Shown piece after piece: positions 23,829 to 31,934 of a DNA stretch of 64,000 nt. The DNA lies in contig PABP01000009.1 of NCBI GenBank assembly GCA_002699585.1, forward strand, positions 545,750 to 609,749, in the 5' to 3' direction. Within the stretch, counting starts at the first letter, position 1, and every line of letters begins with the position of its first letter. Position numbers and translations under genes: made by a program. The DNA comes from Anaerolineaceae bacterium (GTDB lineage: Bacteria > Chloroflexota > Anaerolineae > Aggregatilineales > Phototrophicaceae). The notes beneath the pieces are model-generated. The model was given only the letters and a program-made list of their open reading frames with translations. It was not told where the DNA came from and ran no database searches.

Positions 23829-24011
23829 CCGCTTGGATAGATCCTTAATTTGCAGCGAAATAGGTGTGCGGCTAAAATTGCGTTAGAGCGCACGCTTGCA
23901 AGTGAGACAGGTGATACCGCTTGAAGTCGTTTCGTTGGGCATCTACCTGCACTTTTTATTGACTTCGCAGTCGTATGCGTGTTATTGAATGACCAATTGG
24001 AGGCCAGGCGT

Positions 24012-24650
24012 ATGCCACCTGAGCATAAAAAATCAGGATATTACTATCCAAACAAGTTCGCCCGCATTACGCTCGACGCGATGCAAGAAGTGATGGGCGA
24101 AAATGGCTTAAACGCGATCTTGAACCTGGCTGGCTTATCCGAGTACATCGGTAACTTTCCGCCAGATAATCTGGAAAAAGAATACGACTTTGCGGATTAT
24201 ACTGCCTTGAATATCGCGTTGGAAGAAATGTATGGTCCCCGTGGTGGGCGTGGCTTGGCGCTGCGTGCCGGTCGTGCGACCTTTGCCCAGGGCTTACGTG
24301 CCTTCGGTGCACTGGCGGGTGTGGGTGATCTTGCCTTTAAGGGATTGCCCCTGAATGCCAAACTCAAAATCGGCGTTCCGGCGATGGCCAACATCTTCTC
24401 GCAATTCTCAGACCAGATTTCCAACGTCTATGACGAAGGCAGTGACAAAATCATCTACACGTTGGAGCGCTGCCCCATGTGCTGGGATCGTAAATCCGAC
24501 CGGGCCGTATGCTTCGTTGGTCAGGGCTTGCTGCAAGAAGGCTTGCGTTGGGTATCCGGCGGCAGCGAATTCAAAGTAGATATGGAAACGTGCATCGCCA
24601 AGGGTGATGACATGGGCCGCTATGCCATCTACAAAGAACCGATCAGTTAG
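24012..24650 (+). CDS. V4R (4-vinyl reductase-like) domain protein
   Basis: A 212-residue soluble protein whose C-terminal half resembles the V4R hydrocarbon/small-molecule binding domain, with cysteines in RCPMCWDR, AVCFVGQGLLQEGLRW and METCIAKGDD. V4R domains occur in bacteriochlorophyll-related BchJ and in many sensor proteins; here no output domain is present. The ATG at 24012 follows an excellent GGAGG (eight-base spacing), so the frame upstream to 23979 is not used. It is a single-gene unit closed by a terminator. Function is unassigned. Confidence 0.72.
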   Translation: MPPEHKKSGYYYPNKFARITLDAMQEVMGENGLNAILNLAGLSEYIGNFPPDNLEKEYDFADYTALNIALEEMYGPRGGRGLALRAGRATFAQGLRAFGALAGVGDLAFKGLPLNAKLKIGVPAMANIFSQFSDQISNVYDEGSDKIIYTLERCPMCWDRKSDRAVCFVGQGLLQEGLRWVSGGSEFKVDMETCIAKGDDMGRYAIYKEPIS

Positions 24651-24737: not shown

Positions 24738-24974
24738 TTGCTACTTGCTTTACATAAGCGGCGTTTTTATGTGTTTTATATGATGTCAGGCGAACCTCAG
24801 GGCTAAAATGGTTGTCTTATAAGGTGAGGACATCACATAATGTGTGGCCCAACCACACTTGAAGCCGTTCGCTTTGTCGTGTGTGTCAAGGTAGTGATAG
24901 AATGGTAGATGGCAGGTTAGTGAACGTGACTGACGTTACCGATCATGCGTTACGCCAGAGAGGATACAGATCAT
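24738..24974. other. Intergenic region upstream of the CARDB lipoprotein gene
   Basis: No gene is seen in this stretch, which together with the terminator spans 324 bases. It contains a small hairpin TGTGTGG-CCCAA-CCACAC around 24841-24858 and a possible promoter, TTGTCG at 24874-24879 with TAGAAT at 24898-24903 (18-base spacer). Confidence 0.4.
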
Positions 24975-26150
24975 ATGCGCGGTGCGATTTATACAGGGAT
25001 TCTTGCGCTTTTTATAGCGGTTGCCTGTAACCTGGGTGGCAGTGCCACCCCAACCCCAACTCCAGAGCCGATTTTGACATCGGAGCCAACCGGCAAACCG
25101 CGTGTTTCGATTGTTTCGCCCAGTAGTGGAGCCGAGTTCACGGTCGATGAACCCGTTCTAGTGAGTGTCAATGCGACCGATTCCGTCGGTATTACGCGCA
25201 TCCAGCTCTTTGCTGAAGGTGCGGTTGTCAAAACCATTACGGCTGAAGATCCGGCGGGCGAACCGACGCTTTCCGCATTACTAGATTACACGCCGCGTGC
25301 TGCCGGGGAAGTCAACCTCCAGGTCCTGGCGTTCCGTAATTCCACACCCAGCGACCCTGTCGAAATTGCCATCGTCATCATGGACGAAGATACCTCGTCT
25401 GGTAGTGGAAATTCCGGCAGCGGCAACTCTGGTAGTGGCAGTTCGGGCAGTGGTAGCTCTGGTAGTGGCGGTACAGGCATCCAGATTCCGAATGATGGCA
25501 TCTGCCGTGCGTTGACCAACGTTGGCCTTAACTTCAGAAGCCAACCAACGACCGCCGTTGATAATATCATCACCACATTGCCAGCTGGGACGCTCGCGCC
25601 GATTATTGCGCGCCTGCCAGATAACAGTTGGTGGAAGCTGCAATTTGGCATCAACGTGGGTTGGGTGAGTGCCCAATTTACGACTGAGTACGGTATCTGT
25701 TCCAACGTTCCGGTCGAGGTCTTCAATCCGACAGCTACGCCAACGGCGACATCTGCGGCGACAAATACGCCGACACCCACGCCGACGCCGACCCATACCA
25801 GCATTCCGCAGAGGCCGGACTTGATTATTCCAACCATCGTTGTCGAAGATGATGCGGTGATTCCATCGGGCGAAACAGAAGTGACGGTTACGATTGCAGT
25901 CACAGTGACCAATATCGCCTTTGGCAGCAGTGGACCTTTTGCTGCGACCATGCGTATCGGTTCCGATACCTATGATCTGGCTAGTGTATCGGGGCTTGGC
26001 CAGGGGCAGAGCATCGTGTTGACGCAGGATGTCACTTTCGATGCTGTCGGCGAGTACGATGTGCGTGTCGATGTCGACCCGGATGATCTGGTTGATGAAG
26101 TCAGCGAAGTCAACAATCGCGGTGACATCACCATTGAAGTGACCAACTAG
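24975..26150 (+). CDS. Secreted lipoprotein with Ig-like, SH3-like and CARDB domains
   Basis: 391 residues. A lipoprotein signal ends in AVAC at about residue 18. It is followed by a short Pro/Thr stretch, an Ig-like module (about 40-130, with PRVSIVSPSSGAEF), a Gly/Ser repeat linker, an SH3-like module (LNFRSQPTTAVDNIITTLPAG with WWKLQ and GWVSAQF), a second Pro/Thr linker and a C-terminal CARDB-type adhesion module ending in VDEVSEVNNRGD. The design suggests a surface-anchored binding or structural protein. An ATG at 24945 is in frame, but the ATG at 24975 with AGAGGA upstream gives the proper signal peptide. Confidence 0.8.
   Translation: MRGAIYTGILALFIAVACNLGGSATPTPTPEPILTSEPTGKPRVSIVSPSSGAEFTVDEPVLVSVNATDSVGITRIQLFAEGAVVKTITAEDPAGEPTLSALLDYTPRAAGEVNLQVLAFRNSTPSDPVEIAIVIMDEDTSSGSGNSGSGNSGSGSSGSGSSGSGGTGIQIPNDGICRALTNVGLNFRSQPTTAVDNIITTLPAGTLAPIIARLPDNSWWKLQFGINVGWVSAQFTTEYGICSNVPVEVFNPTATPTATSAATNTPTPTPTPTHTSIPQRPDLIIPTIVVEDDAVIPSGETEVTVTIAVTVTNIAFGSSGPFAATMRIGSDTYDLASVSGLGQGQSIVLTQDVTFDAVGEYDVRVDVDPDDLVDEVSEVNNRGDITIEVTN
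25399..25470 (+). repeat. Short Gly-Ser coding repeat
   Basis: Imperfect tandem units encoding SGSGN/SGSGS in the linker of the lipoprotein. This is an in-frame coding microrepeat prone to length variation, not a regulatory array. Confidence 0.75.
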
Positions 26151-26411: not shown

Positions 26412-29081
26412 GTGTTTGTTGCCAAAAAGTTCGTCGTCATTACCAAACATAACCAATTTGCGCTAGAAGTCAGCCAGCTTAACGCGCGCGGGACATATCA
26501 GGTCGAGACATTTTCCTCGGCGAATAACGCCCTACAATTTTTGCATCGCAACGCACAGGATGCGGTGATTATTGATTTTGATCGTCTGGATGTGGCTGGC
26601 GAACTGCTCATAGAGGCCATCCGTGCACGTCAGCCGGACATTGCCATTATCCTGGCCCCTGATGATGACGAGATGCAAGCGCTAGTCGATTTCTACAATA
26701 TTCAGGCGCTCATAAGAATTCCATTCCCCGTACGCCAACTGGTGAATGTGGTGCAATCTTCGATTCAGTCGATGTATGATGCCCAACCGGATACTGTAAC
26801 CATCCCGGCGACCGACGATCAGACCCCTGAGTCAACTGATGATGTCGTTGATACGATTGACGAAGACGAGGAATTTGACGAAAGCTACTCTGACGATTCG
26901 GTGGAAAAAGGCGACACGCCTGCCATTGAGGTGCGCGCTGTCGATACAGGCCCTTTGAGTGATACGCCGCCGCCGTTTGATCCCCTTGGTGACTTTACAC
27001 CCGTGCCACCTGTCATTCCCAAATACCGGGATGAAATCGATCCATCTGACGAAGTCGAGCAGCCCTCAGAAGAGGCCGAGCCGGACCCGCATGCGCGTTT
27101 TCGTCCGCCACCTTTGCATGAAGCAGCACAGCCCAACGCCCAACAAGATGCTCAGCATGAGATCCACGAGCAGGACGATGCAGAGCAGCAATACGCAGAA
27201 TGGGAATTTGAGGATTGGGAAGAAGACGAGCCAGACGGTCAGGAGCCGGAATCGTCTGATAACTCAGCCGTGTTTGAGCGGCTCCGCGCTGAGGAACCAC
27301 CACTGCCGTCATTTGAGCAAAGTGGCACAGTAAGGGATATTTTCGACACGGGTGCCCATGAATGGGAAGCGCCGCCCACAGATCCGCCGCAAGACACCAC
27401 CGAACGCTCGACAGCGGCAGCCATGCCCTTTGAGCCATCCGGCAAATCACAGAGCATTCCGGCGGCTATCATCCTGGACCGCGCGACGGATGATTCGACC
27501 CCGCTCGAGGGTTTTTCCATTACGCAGTTTATGCAGCGTATCAAAGAGGAATTCCCGCAAGGCGAGGCCCATATTTTGCCGCTGCCATCCTGGGTAGAAG
27601 AAGCCGAACGCTACATCAGTGAGCCGGACTTCCTCGATGAAGATATGCCGGAGCGTTCCGTCGATTACACATCGGCCACGACCGCGCCCAACGTCCCCGC
27701 CGATACAGCCAACATCGGCGAATGGGGCACGGAGCGCATCGAACCGATGAAGCGGTCGCGTGCGACGGATGAACCCACCGAGTCGACGGATTCACGTCCG
27801 CCGACCATGCCGGAAATGCCGCCTGTGCCATCCGAGCGTCCATCGACCATGCCCGAGATGCCGACCGCCGCATCCGATGAAGAGATCAAGGCTGCCAGCG
27901 AAGAAGTGACGCAGCCAGCTATATTTGATGAATATACAGACGAGTTGACATCGTCTGGCCCAACAAGCGCTGACCCGTCTGCTGAACTTGAAGAAGCTGA
28001 AGCAGCTTACGAAGATGAATCACAACTTGAGGAAGAAGTCAGCTACGACGACTTTGAGTTTGTCGTTGCTGATGAAGATGCCGCAGATGAAGACCTCGCT
28101 GAAGATGTTTCCGATGAATGGGACGATGAGGCAGTTGCTGAACCTGCTGCCCAGGCCCAACCACAGCCTGTTCCAGAACCCGTCTATGAAGAACCGGAAA
28201 TTACTGAAGACGAAGAGACATACTTCGCTCGTATCGCCCTGACGTTAACCCAGGTTTCGCTCGAACTGGCCGGGGATGCTACGATTCTGGCGCAAGATGG
28301 GGAACTCGTCGCCCATGCTGGCCCCATGCCGATTGGCGACATCGAAGAGATGCTTCCCATCCTCCAGCAAGATTGGGAAACGAAGCCGGAGCGTGGTCGC
28401 ATCCGTTTTGTGCATCAAGCCAGTACGGGCCAGGATTACATGCTGTATTCGCGCATGGCTGAGGGCGGCTTCGTGCTGTCGATGTTGTTCGCGGGTGCGC
28501 AGTCCATCGGCATGATCCGTGAGCAAGCCCAACGTATGCTGGATTCCCTGGCAAGCGTGCCCGAACGTGAGGTTGATGAACCCTCAACAGCCATGGAAGC
28601 CATCCTTGATGAGCCTGTCGAAGAAGTAGCTACTGAGGACATCGCTGAAGTCAGCGAAGAACCAGAAGTTCACGACGAAGACATCGGGTATGACGAAGAT
28701 CTCGAACTGGATGCATCCCTCGCTCGTGAACCCATCGCTTTCGTCTGGATCGTGCGCGATACGCGCATGACCTTGCCGCAAGAAGCGACCGATTTGCTAG
28801 CGAATACGCTTGGCGAATACCTGTTGCGTGCCCAGTGGGATGTCAAAGAACTACTGGTTGAAAGCGATTATGTCTACTTGTTCGCGGATGTTCCTGGCGA
28901 GAATCTGCTCGGTAATGCCGAGTTGGCTGATCTCATGCAGGCCAGCGCCCAGATTCTCGCAGAAAGTTACCCGGCTATGGAGCCAGACACGCTCTGGGCC
29001 GATAGCTACATGGTGCTAACGCCCGGTCGGGCGCTTAATACGGAAGATATTCAGCGCTTCATCAACTTCGCCCGCCGCTAA
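26412..29081 (+). CDS. Mosaic protein: pseudo-receiver, acidic linker, roadblock-like and dead Y1-transposase-like domains
   Basis: 889 residues. Residues 1-115 look like a degenerate receiver: the fold pattern and an Asp in VIIDFD remain, but the acidic pocket is lost (VITKHN), the Thr/Ser is Ala and the Lys is Arg. Residues 120-600 form a very acidic, Pro-rich disordered linker. Residues 600-715 resemble a roadblock/LC7 module (GDATILAQDGELVAHAG). After another acidic stretch, residues 773-889 match the IS200-type Y1 transposase pattern: WDVKELLVESDYVYLFADVP aligns with the strand that normally carries the HUH motif, but Tyr820 and Tyr822 replace both histidines and Phe883 sits where the catalytic Tyr should be. 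The start is a GTG with GAGGG six bases upstream. A regulatory or scaffold role is inferred. Confidence 0.72.
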   Translation: MFVAKKFVVITKHNQFALEVSQLNARGTYQVETFSSANNALQFLHRNAQDAVIIDFDRLDVAGELLIEAIRARQPDIAIILAPDDDEMQALVDFYNIQALIRIPFPVRQLVNVVQSSIQSMYDAQPDTVTIPATDDQTPESTDDVVDTIDEDEEFDESYSDDSVEKGDTPAIEVRAVDTGPLSDTPPPFDPLGDFTPVPPVIPKYRDEIDPSDEVEQPSEEAEPDPHARFRPPPLHEAAQPNAQQDAQHEIHEQDDAEQQYAEWEFEDWEEDEPDGQEPESSDNSAVFERLRAEEPPLPSFEQSGTVRDIFDTGAHEWEAPPTDPPQDTTERSTAAAMPFEPSGKSQSIPAAIILDRATDDSTPLEGFSITQFMQRIKEEFPQGEAHILPLPSWVEEAERYISEPDFLDEDMPERSVDYTSATTAPNVPADTANIGEWGTERIEPMKRSRATDEPTESTDSRPPTMPEMPPVPSERPSTMPEMPTAASDEEIKAASEEVTQPAIFDEYTDELTSSGPTSADPSAELEEAEAAYEDESQLEEEVSYDDFEFVVADEDAADEDLAEDVSDEWDDEAVAEPAAQAQPQPVPEPVYEEPEITEDEETYFARIALTLTQVSLELAGDATILAQDGELVAHAGPMPIGDIEEMLPILQQDWETKPERGRIRFVHQASTGQDYMLYSRMAEGGFVLSMLFAGAQSIGMIREQAQRMLDSLASVPEREVDEPSTAMEAILDEPVEEVATEDIAEVSEEPEVHDEDIGYDEDLELDASLAREPIAFVWIVRDTRMTLPQEATDLLANTLGEYLLRAQWDVKELLVESDYVYLFADVPGENLLGNAELADLMQASAQILAESYPAMEPDTLWADSYMVLTPGRALNTEDIQRFINFARR

Positions 29082-29116: not shown

Positions 29117-29148
29117 GAATGACAGGTGCAGCGACCTGTCATTCTTGC
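29117..29148 (+). terminator. Terminator-like hairpin before polA
   Basis: Eleven-base-pair stem GAATGACAGGT/ACCTGTCATTC with a six-base loop, followed by a short T-rich stretch. It should end the mosaic-protein transcript. Confidence 0.65.
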
Positions 29149-29154
29149 TATAAT
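29146..29154 (+). promoter_or_regulatory. Extended -10 promoter element of polA
   Basis: TGCTATAAT is a perfect extended -10 (TGn plus TATAAT), about 38 bases upstream of the polA ATG. The -35 region lies inside the preceding hairpin and is not recognisable. Confidence 0.5.
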
Positions 29155-29192: not shown

Positions 29193-31934
29193 ATGTCAGA
29201 GCGCCCGATTCTGTACCTCATTGATGGCCATGCCGTCGCCTATCGCCAGTTTTTCGCGCTCCAGCGCGTGCCGATGAGCACCCAAACTGGCGAACCCACG
29301 GCAGCAGTATTTGGATTCACACGTATTCTGCTGGATATCCTGTCCAATGTGAAACCTAAGTACCTGGCTGTCAGCTTTGACATGGGCCTCAGCGCGCGTG
29401 ATGAGTGGTTCCCGGAGTACAAGGGGACACGCGAAAAAATGCCGGACGATTTGGCGACGCAGTTGCCGCGTATCCAGCAGGTAGTGGAAACGCTCAACAT
29501 CCCCGTGCTGACGATGGAAAACACGGAAGCTGACGATGTCATCGGGACCATCGCCAAGCAGGCCCAGGAACAGGGTGTCGATATCCATATCGTCACGGGC
29601 GACCGGGACATTCTGCAACTGCTGACGCCGCATGTGCGTGTGCAGTTGCCCTCACGCAAGGGGCCGGATAAAGTTTACGATGTAGATGCTTTTGTCGAGC
29701 GCTATGCCTTGCAACCCGACCAGCTCATCGACCTCAAAGCACTGATGGGCGATAGCAGCGATAATATCCCCGGCGTCAAAGGCGTTGGCGAAAAGACCGC
29801 TACCAAATTGTTGACCGAATACGGCACACTTGATGGCATTTACGAGCATATCGACGACATTAAAGGCAGCACGCAGACCAAGCTGATCGACGGCAAAGAG
29901 ATGGCTTACCTCAGCCAGAAGTTAGCCACGATCATTCAGGATCTGGACATCGCCCTCGATCTGGATGCCTGTGTCGCCCAGGACTACGACCCGCTGGCGG
30001 TTGATGCGCTCTTTGGCGAACTGGAATTCAACTCGGTCCGTCAGGATTTCCGCGAGATGCACGAAAAGGTCGAATTCGACCCCTCGCCGGACATTACGAC
30101 GGTCATCGTCGATACCGAAGATAAACTGGCTGACATGGTCAAGGTGCTGGCATCTGCTGAAACAATTGTCTGGGATGTGGAAACCACCAGTATTGACCAG
30201 ATGTCGGCTGATCTGGTGGGCATCGCGTTAGCGGTCGATAGTGTCACCGGATATTATGTGCCGGTTGGCCACAAAAATTCCAACGCGGGCACACTTTTTG
30301 AAGAAGAAGTTCAGCAGCAGTTGCCCATGCAGACCGTTATCGATGCCCTGCGTGGCCCCCTTACGGATCCGAATATTGGTAAAGTGGCCCACAACGCAGC
30401 TTATGACATCATCGTCATGCGCCGCTACGGTATCGATGTCACGCCTGTCACCTTCGATACCATGATCGCTGAGTGGATGCGCGACCCGATCAGCAACAAC
30501 CTGAGCCTTAAGCGTTTCGCCCTCAGTGAGCTGGGCGTCACCATGACCGAGATCAAAGAGCTAATTGGCACAGGCAAGAAGCAAATTCCCATGTCGCAAG
30601 TGGCCATTGAAGACGCCGCCCCCTATGCTGCCGCTGATGCCACCGTTACCTTCCGCGCAGCCGAGTTCCTTCAACCCAAGCTGGCCGAACTCAGTGTAGA
30701 GCAGCTTTATCACGATATGGAGATGCCGCTGGTCCCGGTGATTTGTGATATGCAGCAGGCCGGTGCACTGCTTGATGTGGCGTTCCTGGGAGAAATGAGC
30801 GCCCATCTGGCTGAAAATATCACCAGCCTGGAAGAGCAAATCAGGGGCTATGCCGAAGATGAAACCTTCAATCCGAGCAGTCCCAAGCAGCTCAACGAAG
30901 TGCTCTTTGATAAACTCAAGCTGCCGACCGAGGGACTCAAAAAGACCAAACAGGGCTTCTCGACTGACATTAACACGCTGGAAGCCTTGAAAGATGCCCA
31001 TCCCATCGTCCCCTGCATTGTCGAATACCGTGAATTGACCAAGCTCAAGGGGACTTATGTCGATGCCTTGCCGCAATTGGTCAACGCAGAAACAGGTCGC
31101 CTCCATACCAGCTATAACCAGACGGGGACATCGACTGGCCGCTTCAGCAGCAGCAATCCTAACTTGCAGAATATCCCCATTCGCACTGAATTGGGTCGCG
31201 AAGTCCGTAAGGCGTTCATCGCGCCGGAGGGCATGCACCTGCTGGCCGTTGACTACAGTCAGATTGAGTTGCGCGTCATGGCCCATATGAGTGGTGACGA
31301 AGGCTTAAAAGAGGCCTTCCAGCAAGGGCAGGACATTCACCGGGCGACAGCCGCCGCCGTCAATGGCATTGATCCTGATGATGTCACTTACGAACAGCGC
31401 AGCTTTGCCAAGCGCGTCAACTTCGGCTTGATGTACGGTATGGGCGCGTTCCGCTTGGCCCGCGATAGCAACCTGACCCTGGCCGAGGCCGAAGGCTTCA
31501 TCAAAACCTATTTCGAGCGGTTCCCTGGCGTCCAGAAGTACATGGATAGTGTCGAACGTTCCGCCCGTGATGAGGGCTATGTCCAGACGTTGTTGGGTCG
31601 CAAACGCTTCTTCCCGAACCTGGCAGCAGGCAATCGTGGTCAGCGTGCCCAAGGTGAACTCCGTGCAGCCATCAATATGCCCATCCAGGGCACAGCCGCC
31701 GACATTCTCAAGATTGCCATGCTCAAATTACACGATGCACTAAATCAGCGCACAGATAGCGCCCGCATGATTCTACAGGTGCATGATGAACTGGTGCTGG
31801 AAGTCGAGGATGAGCAGCTCGACGACGTGACGCGTCTGGTCGTCGATACAATGGAAGCCGCCTATCCGCTGGATGTGCCGCTGGTGGCTAATGCCAGTAT
31901 TGGCCGCAACTGGCTGGACATGACCGATCTTTAG
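29193..31934 (+). CDS. polA: DNA polymerase I
   Basis: A 913-residue family A polymerase for Okazaki fragment processing and repair. The N-terminal 5' nuclease has LIDGHAVAYRQFF, TMENTEADDVIG, VTGDRDILQLL and GDSSDNIPGVKGVGEKTA. The 3'-5' proofreading domain keeps its acidic residues (WDVETTS, AHNAAYDI, YAAADAT), so it is probably active. The polymerase domain has the motif A sequence DYSQIELRVMAH, the O-helix RSFAKRVNFGLMYGMG and motif C HDELVLEV. The ATG at 29193 follows an extended -10 promoter. All catalytic positions I can check are intact. Confidence 0.97.
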   Translation: MSERPILYLIDGHAVAYRQFFALQRVPMSTQTGEPTAAVFGFTRILLDILSNVKPKYLAVSFDMGLSARDEWFPEYKGTREKMPDDLATQLPRIQQVVETLNIPVLTMENTEADDVIGTIAKQAQEQGVDIHIVTGDRDILQLLTPHVRVQLPSRKGPDKVYDVDAFVERYALQPDQLIDLKALMGDSSDNIPGVKGVGEKTATKLLTEYGTLDGIYEHIDDIKGSTQTKLIDGKEMAYLSQKLATIIQDLDIALDLDACVAQDYDPLAVDALFGELEFNSVRQDFREMHEKVEFDPSPDITTVIVDTEDKLADMVKVLASAETIVWDVETTSIDQMSADLVGIALAVDSVTGYYVPVGHKNSNAGTLFEEEVQQQLPMQTVIDALRGPLTDPNIGKVAHNAAYDIIVMRRYGIDVTPVTFDTMIAEWMRDPISNNLSLKRFALSELGVTMTEIKELIGTGKKQIPMSQVAIEDAAPYAAADATVTFRAAEFLQPKLAELSVEQLYHDMEMPLVPVICDMQQAGALLDVAFLGEMSAHLAENITSLEEQIRGYAEDETFNPSSPKQLNEVLFDKLKLPTEGLKKTKQGFSTDINTLEALKDAHPIVPCIVEYRELTKLKGTYVDALPQLVNAETGRLHTSYNQTGTSTGRFSSSNPNLQNIPIRTELGREVRKAFIAPEGMHLLAVDYSQIELRVMAHMSGDEGLKEAFQQGQDIHRATAAAVNGIDPDDVTYEQRSFAKRVNFGLMYGMGAFRLARDSNLTLAEAEGFIKTYFERFPGVQKYMDSVERSARDEGYVQTLLGRKRFFPNLAAGNRGQRAQGELRAAINMPIQGTAADILKIAMLKLHDALNQRTDSARMILQVHDELVLEVEDEQLDDVTRLVVDTMEAAYPLDVPLVANASIGRNWLDMTDL

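Follow-up and report, generated by a model that had tools for sequence, protein, structure and literature searches.

Bacterial domestication of IS200/IS605 proteins has, to our knowledge, yielded mainly active enzymes (RAYT) or RNA-guided nucleases. The transposase TnpA of these elements (PF01797; structures 2f4f, 2ec2, 2xma and 2a6o) functions as a dimer with a catalytic set of HUH motif, Tyr and Q131, and sequences without the core motifs are taken as non-functional in the available part of PMC6006769. The TnpA-REP (RAYT) and TnpAY1 subclasses of that paper likewise comprise Y1 domains not borne by insertion sequences, in some cases accompanied by additional domains, but the set differs from ours in that its sequences were chosen to have HUH and Tyr; within the accessible text, the terms 'response regulator' and 'fused' are absent. 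A Y1 transposase gene near a nitrite reductase gene appears in an extract of PMC8756737. In roadblock systems, response regulators and proteins of the roadblock and PATAN types are linked to MglA-type GTPases, and the polarity adaptors FrzS, RomR and AglZ, like the protein described here, have a receiver, theirs within a network that includes MglA and MglB (PMC4316618, in part). No description of a Y1–receiver or Y1–roadblock fusion was found among the matches listed in open-access full text, a coverage outside which most subscription journals lie. We know of no Y1 domain in FrzS, RomR or AglZ.

Such a fusion is encoded in the window, by which we mean the whole 64,000-nucleotide stretch of DNA that was analysed. 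A frame of 889 codons with a GTG start and a stop (Table 1) specifies a pseudo-receiver, an acidic linker, a roadblock-like module and a terminal segment with the Y1 pattern, the parts named by the original prediction, in an order found also in relatives; it is the single such fusion frame in the window's genome. The likeness to IS200/IS605 TnpA lies in fold, domain length, core Trp/Tyr/Gly positions and profile score. The window's protein differs in having no HUH pair, Phe for Tyr and no Gln ligand and, whereas TnpA is the product of a small stand-alone mobile gene, its Y1 domain is fused behind a 770-residue host protein in a single copy. With MglB and other roadblock proteins (6izw, 3leq; conservon CvnB) it shares the roadblock fold, the element order and a Ras-like GTPase in the same genome; here, however, the module is part of a fusion with a receiver and with a Y1 domain, has no Pfam roadblock match and has no relative of that GTPase in the neighbourhoods examined.

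Table 1 Coordinates of the fusion gene, its parts and its neighbours within the window
Feature	Position	Strand	Basis or remark
Whole gene: pseudo-receiver / acidic linker / roadblock-like / dead Y1 transposase domain	26412..29081	+	889 aa
Pseudo-receiver, residues 1-125	26412..26786	+	AlphaFold model, Foldseek, alignments
Acidic linker, residues 126-590	26787..28181	+	28% D+E, net charge -107
Short linker motif EEPPxPxxExSGTVxDL, partly conserved, residues 285-312	27264..27347	+	36-protein alignment, one member (L109) truncated
Second linker stretch FSLxxLxxxI...PSWxxExExxIxEPDFL, partly conserved, residues 361-412	27492..27647	+	Same 36-protein alignment
Roadblock/LC7 (MglB-like) module, residues 599-714	28206..28553	+	Predicted fold
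Dead IS200/IS605 Y1 transposase domain, residues 772-889	28725..29078	+	Pfam, fold, relatives
Y820-V-Y822 replacing the HUH motif	28869..28877	+	Alignment to TnpA and residue tallies
F883 replacing the nucleophilic Tyr; A887 at Y+4 replacing the Gln metal ligand	29058..29072	+	Sequence alignment
11-bp hairpin then TATAAT, between fusion gene and polA	29117..29154	+	Hairpin listed on - strand only by scan
polA (DNA polymerase I), commonest downstream neighbour	29193..31934	+	NCBIfam
CARDB + Ig-like domain protein, upstream	24945..26150	+	Family in 28/36 loci
Upstream neighbour, weak MetOD1 match (18.9 bits, cut-off 23.8)	23979-24650		Several Cys near end; family in 8/36 loci

A receiver fold is present in the predicted model of the N-terminal part. 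The Pfam receiver match is sub-threshold (24.1 bits at residues 22–99 in one scan, 28.3 bits in another, cut-off 30.2); the AlphaFold model of residues 1–145 has a pLDDT of 88.4, and the Foldseek matches listed for it are receivers or receiver-bearing proteins (best E 5.7e-7). The original prediction described this receiver as degenerate, and alignment agrees: the acidic pair is missing, Ala replaces Thr/Ser and Arg replaces Lys, though the phospho-acceptor Asp55 is kept and is invariant in 28 of 28 aligned sequences, the window's included. The roadblock-like module likewise predicted is borne out by its fold in the model, with element order a-b-b-a-b-b-b-a and VIA-align Z scores of 12.5 against MglB (6izw) and 11.9 against the roadblock protein 3leq; Pfam gives no sequence support, the isolated stretch having no match at E up to 10. 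Three other roadblock proteins are encoded in the window's genome, as is a Ras-like GTPase with an adjoining DUF4388 protein (L218:402-1911, the DUF4388 protein preceding the GTPase), a pair of candidate partners. The Arf profile has an above-cut-off match in this genome and the Roc profile nothing above cut-off.

At the carboxy terminus, PF01797 (Y1_Tnp) matches residues 777–885 with 28.8 bits against a cut-off of 23 (E 1.4e-6). Some relatives score 52–66 bits, and 26 long-frame proteins across 41 family genomes, counted manually from the rows and including the window's own, exceed the cut-off. The best solved structure by sequence alone is the IS200 transposase 2f4f (E 3.1e-5), in whose alignment Y820 and Y822 pair with the two histidines of HUH, and F883 with the catalytic Tyr. 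An AlphaFold model of residues 591–889, built on an alignment of 36 sequences (the window's plus 35 from a DNA-pattern scan), contains two folded parts and a low-confidence linker (mean pLDDT 79.4, pTM 0.55). Its Y1 part runs strand-helix-strand-strand-helix-strand-helix and superimposes in VIA-align on 2ec2 (Z 13.3, rmsd 2.1, 100 residues), 2f4f (Z 13.1, rmsd 3.0, 107 residues) and 2xma (Z 12.8), and Foldseek is concordant on both folded parts. The 50 structural matches listed are TnpA structures or roadblock-/longin-type proteins, and the absence of other folds among them is uninformative. Because the structural alignments to TnpA end at model residues 281–287, no later than the beginning of the last helix, the equivalence of F883 with the catalytic Tyr rests on sequence. 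The Y1 fold placed here by the original prediction is thus upheld by two of the checks it had named, a profile search of this domain and structure prediction compared with TnpA. A chance profile match was considered and ruled out by the Pfam score, the relatives' scores, the 26 long-frame proteins and the predicted fold. Against the NCBIfam IS200 equivalog the window's protein scores 26.5 bits, below the cut-off of 55; among four fusions scanned, L073 (70.9) and L074 (61.8) pass, and L104 (35.8) fails together with the window's.

The three substituted residues, Y820, Y822 and F883, stand in the sequence as originally predicted. Their counterparts were tallied in 56 fused domains (the window's included) obtained by whole-protein or profile searches with no residue-specific pattern; a further 22, bringing the total to 78, were excluded as they had been found through a DNA pattern itself demanding [DE][YF][VI]Y. 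Both HUH histidines occur in 0 of the 56, against 19 of 21 well-scoring stand-alone Y1 proteins from the same class. The first His position is occupied by Y (41), F (8), W (3), L (2), H (1) or V (1), hence Tyr or Phe in 49/56; the second by Y (25), Q (18), H (3), N (3), S (2), L (2), T (1), C (1) or M (1), Tyr or Gln in 43/56; and the catalytic Tyr position by F (36), Y (19) or L (1). The stand-alone controls keep the first His in 21/21, the second in 19/21 (two Arg) and the Tyr in 20/21 (one is truncated there). Gln at Y+4 is found in 7/56 fused domains and 18/21 controls; in the window's protein this third metal-ligand position is A887, and a Gln/Asn ligand is absent. The core residues W779, W862 and Y866 are common to fused domains and stand-alone proteins. 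Both histidines, the Tyr nucleophile and the third metal ligand are gone, and the chemistry of the Y1 domain is lost in the window's protein; the segment is almost certainly a dead, domesticated Y1 domain.

Decay of the motif varies by lineage (Y-x-Y, Y-x-Q, x-x-H), and family f34 has Y-x-Q in 15/15 domains with the Tyr kept in 14/15. Five f42 fusions (L086, L090, L202, L208 and L212, the last three read by eye after the tally) retain the second His alone, a different route of decay. Two stand-alone proteins, L159 and L161, have H-x-R in place of HUH with Tyr and Gln kept, and may be inactive or altered transposases.

Whole-protein searching gave matches in 51 of 61 genomes, the window's own included. 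A combined roadblock and Y1 profile matches 131 of 141 genomes of at least 80% completeness in the window's order. Manual reading of the rows places both modules in one frame in 126 of the 141, five of these as two pieces of one frame; five genomes have weak matches alone (E 3.6e-5 to 2.8e-17, with the rows of one of the five shown), and in family f2 (7 genomes) four have weak matches and three have none. Across a sample of the class, 76 of 249 genomes match, and both modules are present in at least 31 by manual reading (families f1, f3, f4, f8, f34, f41, f42 and f58); in f17, f23, f48, f52 and f55 there are receiver–roadblock proteins in which no Y1 domain was detected. For the phylum, the sample gives 79 matches out of 301, and all rows outside the class start at profile position 128 or later, which corresponds to Y1 alone. 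Coverage beyond the phylum consists of one DNA-pattern scan, which returned 35 loci, 34 of them titled Chloroflexi, Chloroflexota, Anaerolineae, Anaerolineaceae or Aggregatilineales. The other, L125, lies in a record titled Pleurocapsa minor (a cyanobacterium), a title that is probably wrong for the contig. Extending the original prediction, the fusion is common to several families of the class and often sits beside polA.

In a maximum-likelihood tree of 76 domains, stand-alone Y1 proteins fall on one side of a branch (support 98/92), and fused together with stand-alone dead domains on the other; the tree has 134 columns and a bootstrap that had not settled, with L071 and two f42 rows on long branches. 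Two changes are required for the fused domains as a group, since L152–L154, three dead domains that stand alone, fall among the f34 and f58 fusions. These three are proteins of 182–194 aa with Y-x-Q, from f34 genomes that also hold the fusion, and were perhaps duplicated off it. A roadblock-domain tree, made by a quick method from few columns and with long branches, unites 20 proteins that lack Y1 (99) and sets L158 apart among f34 rows. The two changes of Y1 label that it needs would fit one gain and one loss, and it settles nothing. A single domestication of the Y1 domain in Anaerolineae fits the data, which do not prove it. The Y1 domain is under purifying selection and widely conserved in the order: over 18 pairs chosen by their roadblock module, its dN/dS has a median of 0.08 and a maximum of 0.34, and the roadblock module a median of 0.19. 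Another set gave 0.03–0.15 for Y1, with pairs picked by Y1 identity, which biases it low, and one genome pair counted twice.

These data bear on whether the fusion arose recently by accident, or by read-through from a decaying insertion sequence into a host gene. Intact IS200-type genes do occur in the same genomes, but the fusion is common to the order and to other families, with a constant domain order, low dN/dS and a clear split from stand-alone relatives; given the 76-domain tree, the order-wide presence and the dN/dS values, we reject this origin, whose probability we regard as negligible. The nearest genome, G001, itself carries eleven equal-scoring Y1 genes, an insertion sequence that is expanding alongside the dead domain. 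It is also very improbable that Tyr or Phe in place of the metal ligands supports a new chemistry: the choice of replacements is narrow at both histidine positions (49/56 and 43/56), but the second varies among lineages through Y, Q, H, N, S, L, T, C and M.

Of 36 loci (the window's and 35 others), 29 have polA downstream in the same orientation, at 21–211 nt in 27 and farther in two; among the seven loci without it, the stored sequence runs on past the gene for no more than 117 nt in L099 and 661 nt in L101. The adjacency is also present in f34 (L126, L127, L164), f58 (L132, L155) and f4 (L134), and in f61 polA adjoins L158, which has no Y1 domain; it was not seen at L129, L130, L131, L133, L135 or L136. 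In L198–L217, 20 loci that are mostly receiver–roadblock without Y1, polA occurs at L208 alone, an f42 fusion, about 1.6 kb downstream on the same strand. Co-transcription of the fusion gene and polA is doubtful because the hairpin and TATAAT lie between them, a region that may give polA its own promoter; terminator-like sites in the region number 10 against 8.1 in shuffles (about equal), and promoter-like sites 5 against 6.9, no excess. Further neighbours are MiaB and ornithine carbamoyltransferase, with CdaA in L108 and its like; the carbamoyltransferase after polA, read by eye as PyrB, is by NCBIfam the ornithine enzyme. A search at E up to 0.01 through the 396 frames in 50 neighbourhoods found no relative of the genome's Ras-like GTPase.

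The net charge of the Y1 domain averages −7.1 in the window's order (range −19 to −1, n = 58), +2.9 in f34 (1 to 4, n = 15), +0.4 in other fusions (n = 5) and +6.0 in the stand-alone controls (−1 to 12, n = 21); residues 772–889 of the window's protein carry −10. The acidity within the order speaks against DNA binding. Among 32 own-order domains, the positions that have one residue in 75% or more and at which the controls' commonest residue differs include, in a list that is not exhaustive, D783, W809, Y822, A825, D826, A863, D864, P871, R873, E/D879, F883, F886 and R888. Many of these map to or directly flank the former HUH strand, the WxxxY strand and the final helix, and ADVP, WAD, PGR and E-I..F..F.R are new residues common in fused domains. 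Such clustering at the former catalytic motifs suggests that the old catalytic face has been rebuilt.

The surface data help to weigh what the dead domain does. It might still bind single-stranded or hairpin nucleic acid and so bring a signalling protein to DNA, for example to replication or repair intermediates handled together with polA. TnpA recognises secondary structures in single-stranded DNA (PMC6006769, available part), polA lies downstream in most of the 36 loci and next door in f34, f58, f4 and f61 loci, and this proximity may instead hint at a DNA-related role; binding of DNA or RNA may also persist in f34, whose domains are slightly basic and keep the Tyr in 14/15. Set against this are the acidic domains of the window's order and the polA adjacency at L158, where Y1 is absent, and we consider nucleic-acid binding unlikely, if worth keeping in mind. 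A domain that simply dimerises or stabilises the protein, with no partner of its own, would agree with the dimeric state of TnpA and with the core W779, W862 and Y866 shared with stand-alone proteins, but the fusion-specific residues in and beside the old catalytic motifs are more than a pure dimer seems to need; such a role is improbable. Within the window's order, a module for protein–protein rather than nucleic-acid contacts is the probable function.

We favour a putative non-enzymatic dimerisation or docking module within an adaptor, with which the binding or scaffold role guessed in the original prediction is compatible. Like MglB, the roadblock module would dimerise and perhaps contact a Ras-like GTPase; partners could dock, independently of phosphorylation, on the pseudo-receiver and on both linker motifs; and the dead Y1 domain, whose fold is dimeric in TnpA, may offer a second dimerisation or docking surface through its old active-site face. 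On balance we read the whole as a host signalling adaptor of Anaerolineae with a fused, catalysis-free IS200/IS605-type Y1 domain, probably from one fusion. A GTPase link of the adaptor is tentative, and we lowered our estimate of it slightly because no such GTPase is found among the neighbours. A fuller scheme, in which a once-domesticated single-stranded DNA transposase domain sits in a phosphorylation-independent, GTPase-linked adaptor, uses its active-site face as the docking surface and couples it to PolA or DNA intermediates, is speculative and has a low probability.

The class offers a comparative series of receiver–roadblock proteins without Y1, with a dead Y1 domain, and of stand-alone dead Y1 proteins. 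Two of the four fusions scanned pass the IS200 equivalog without an HUH motif, and annotation pipelines may name some fusions transposases. Here an enzyme of mobile DNA seems to have acquired a structural or binding role, and the retention of a dead HUH transposase fold across most of an order, as a constant component of a signalling-type protein, points to a wider use of such folds.
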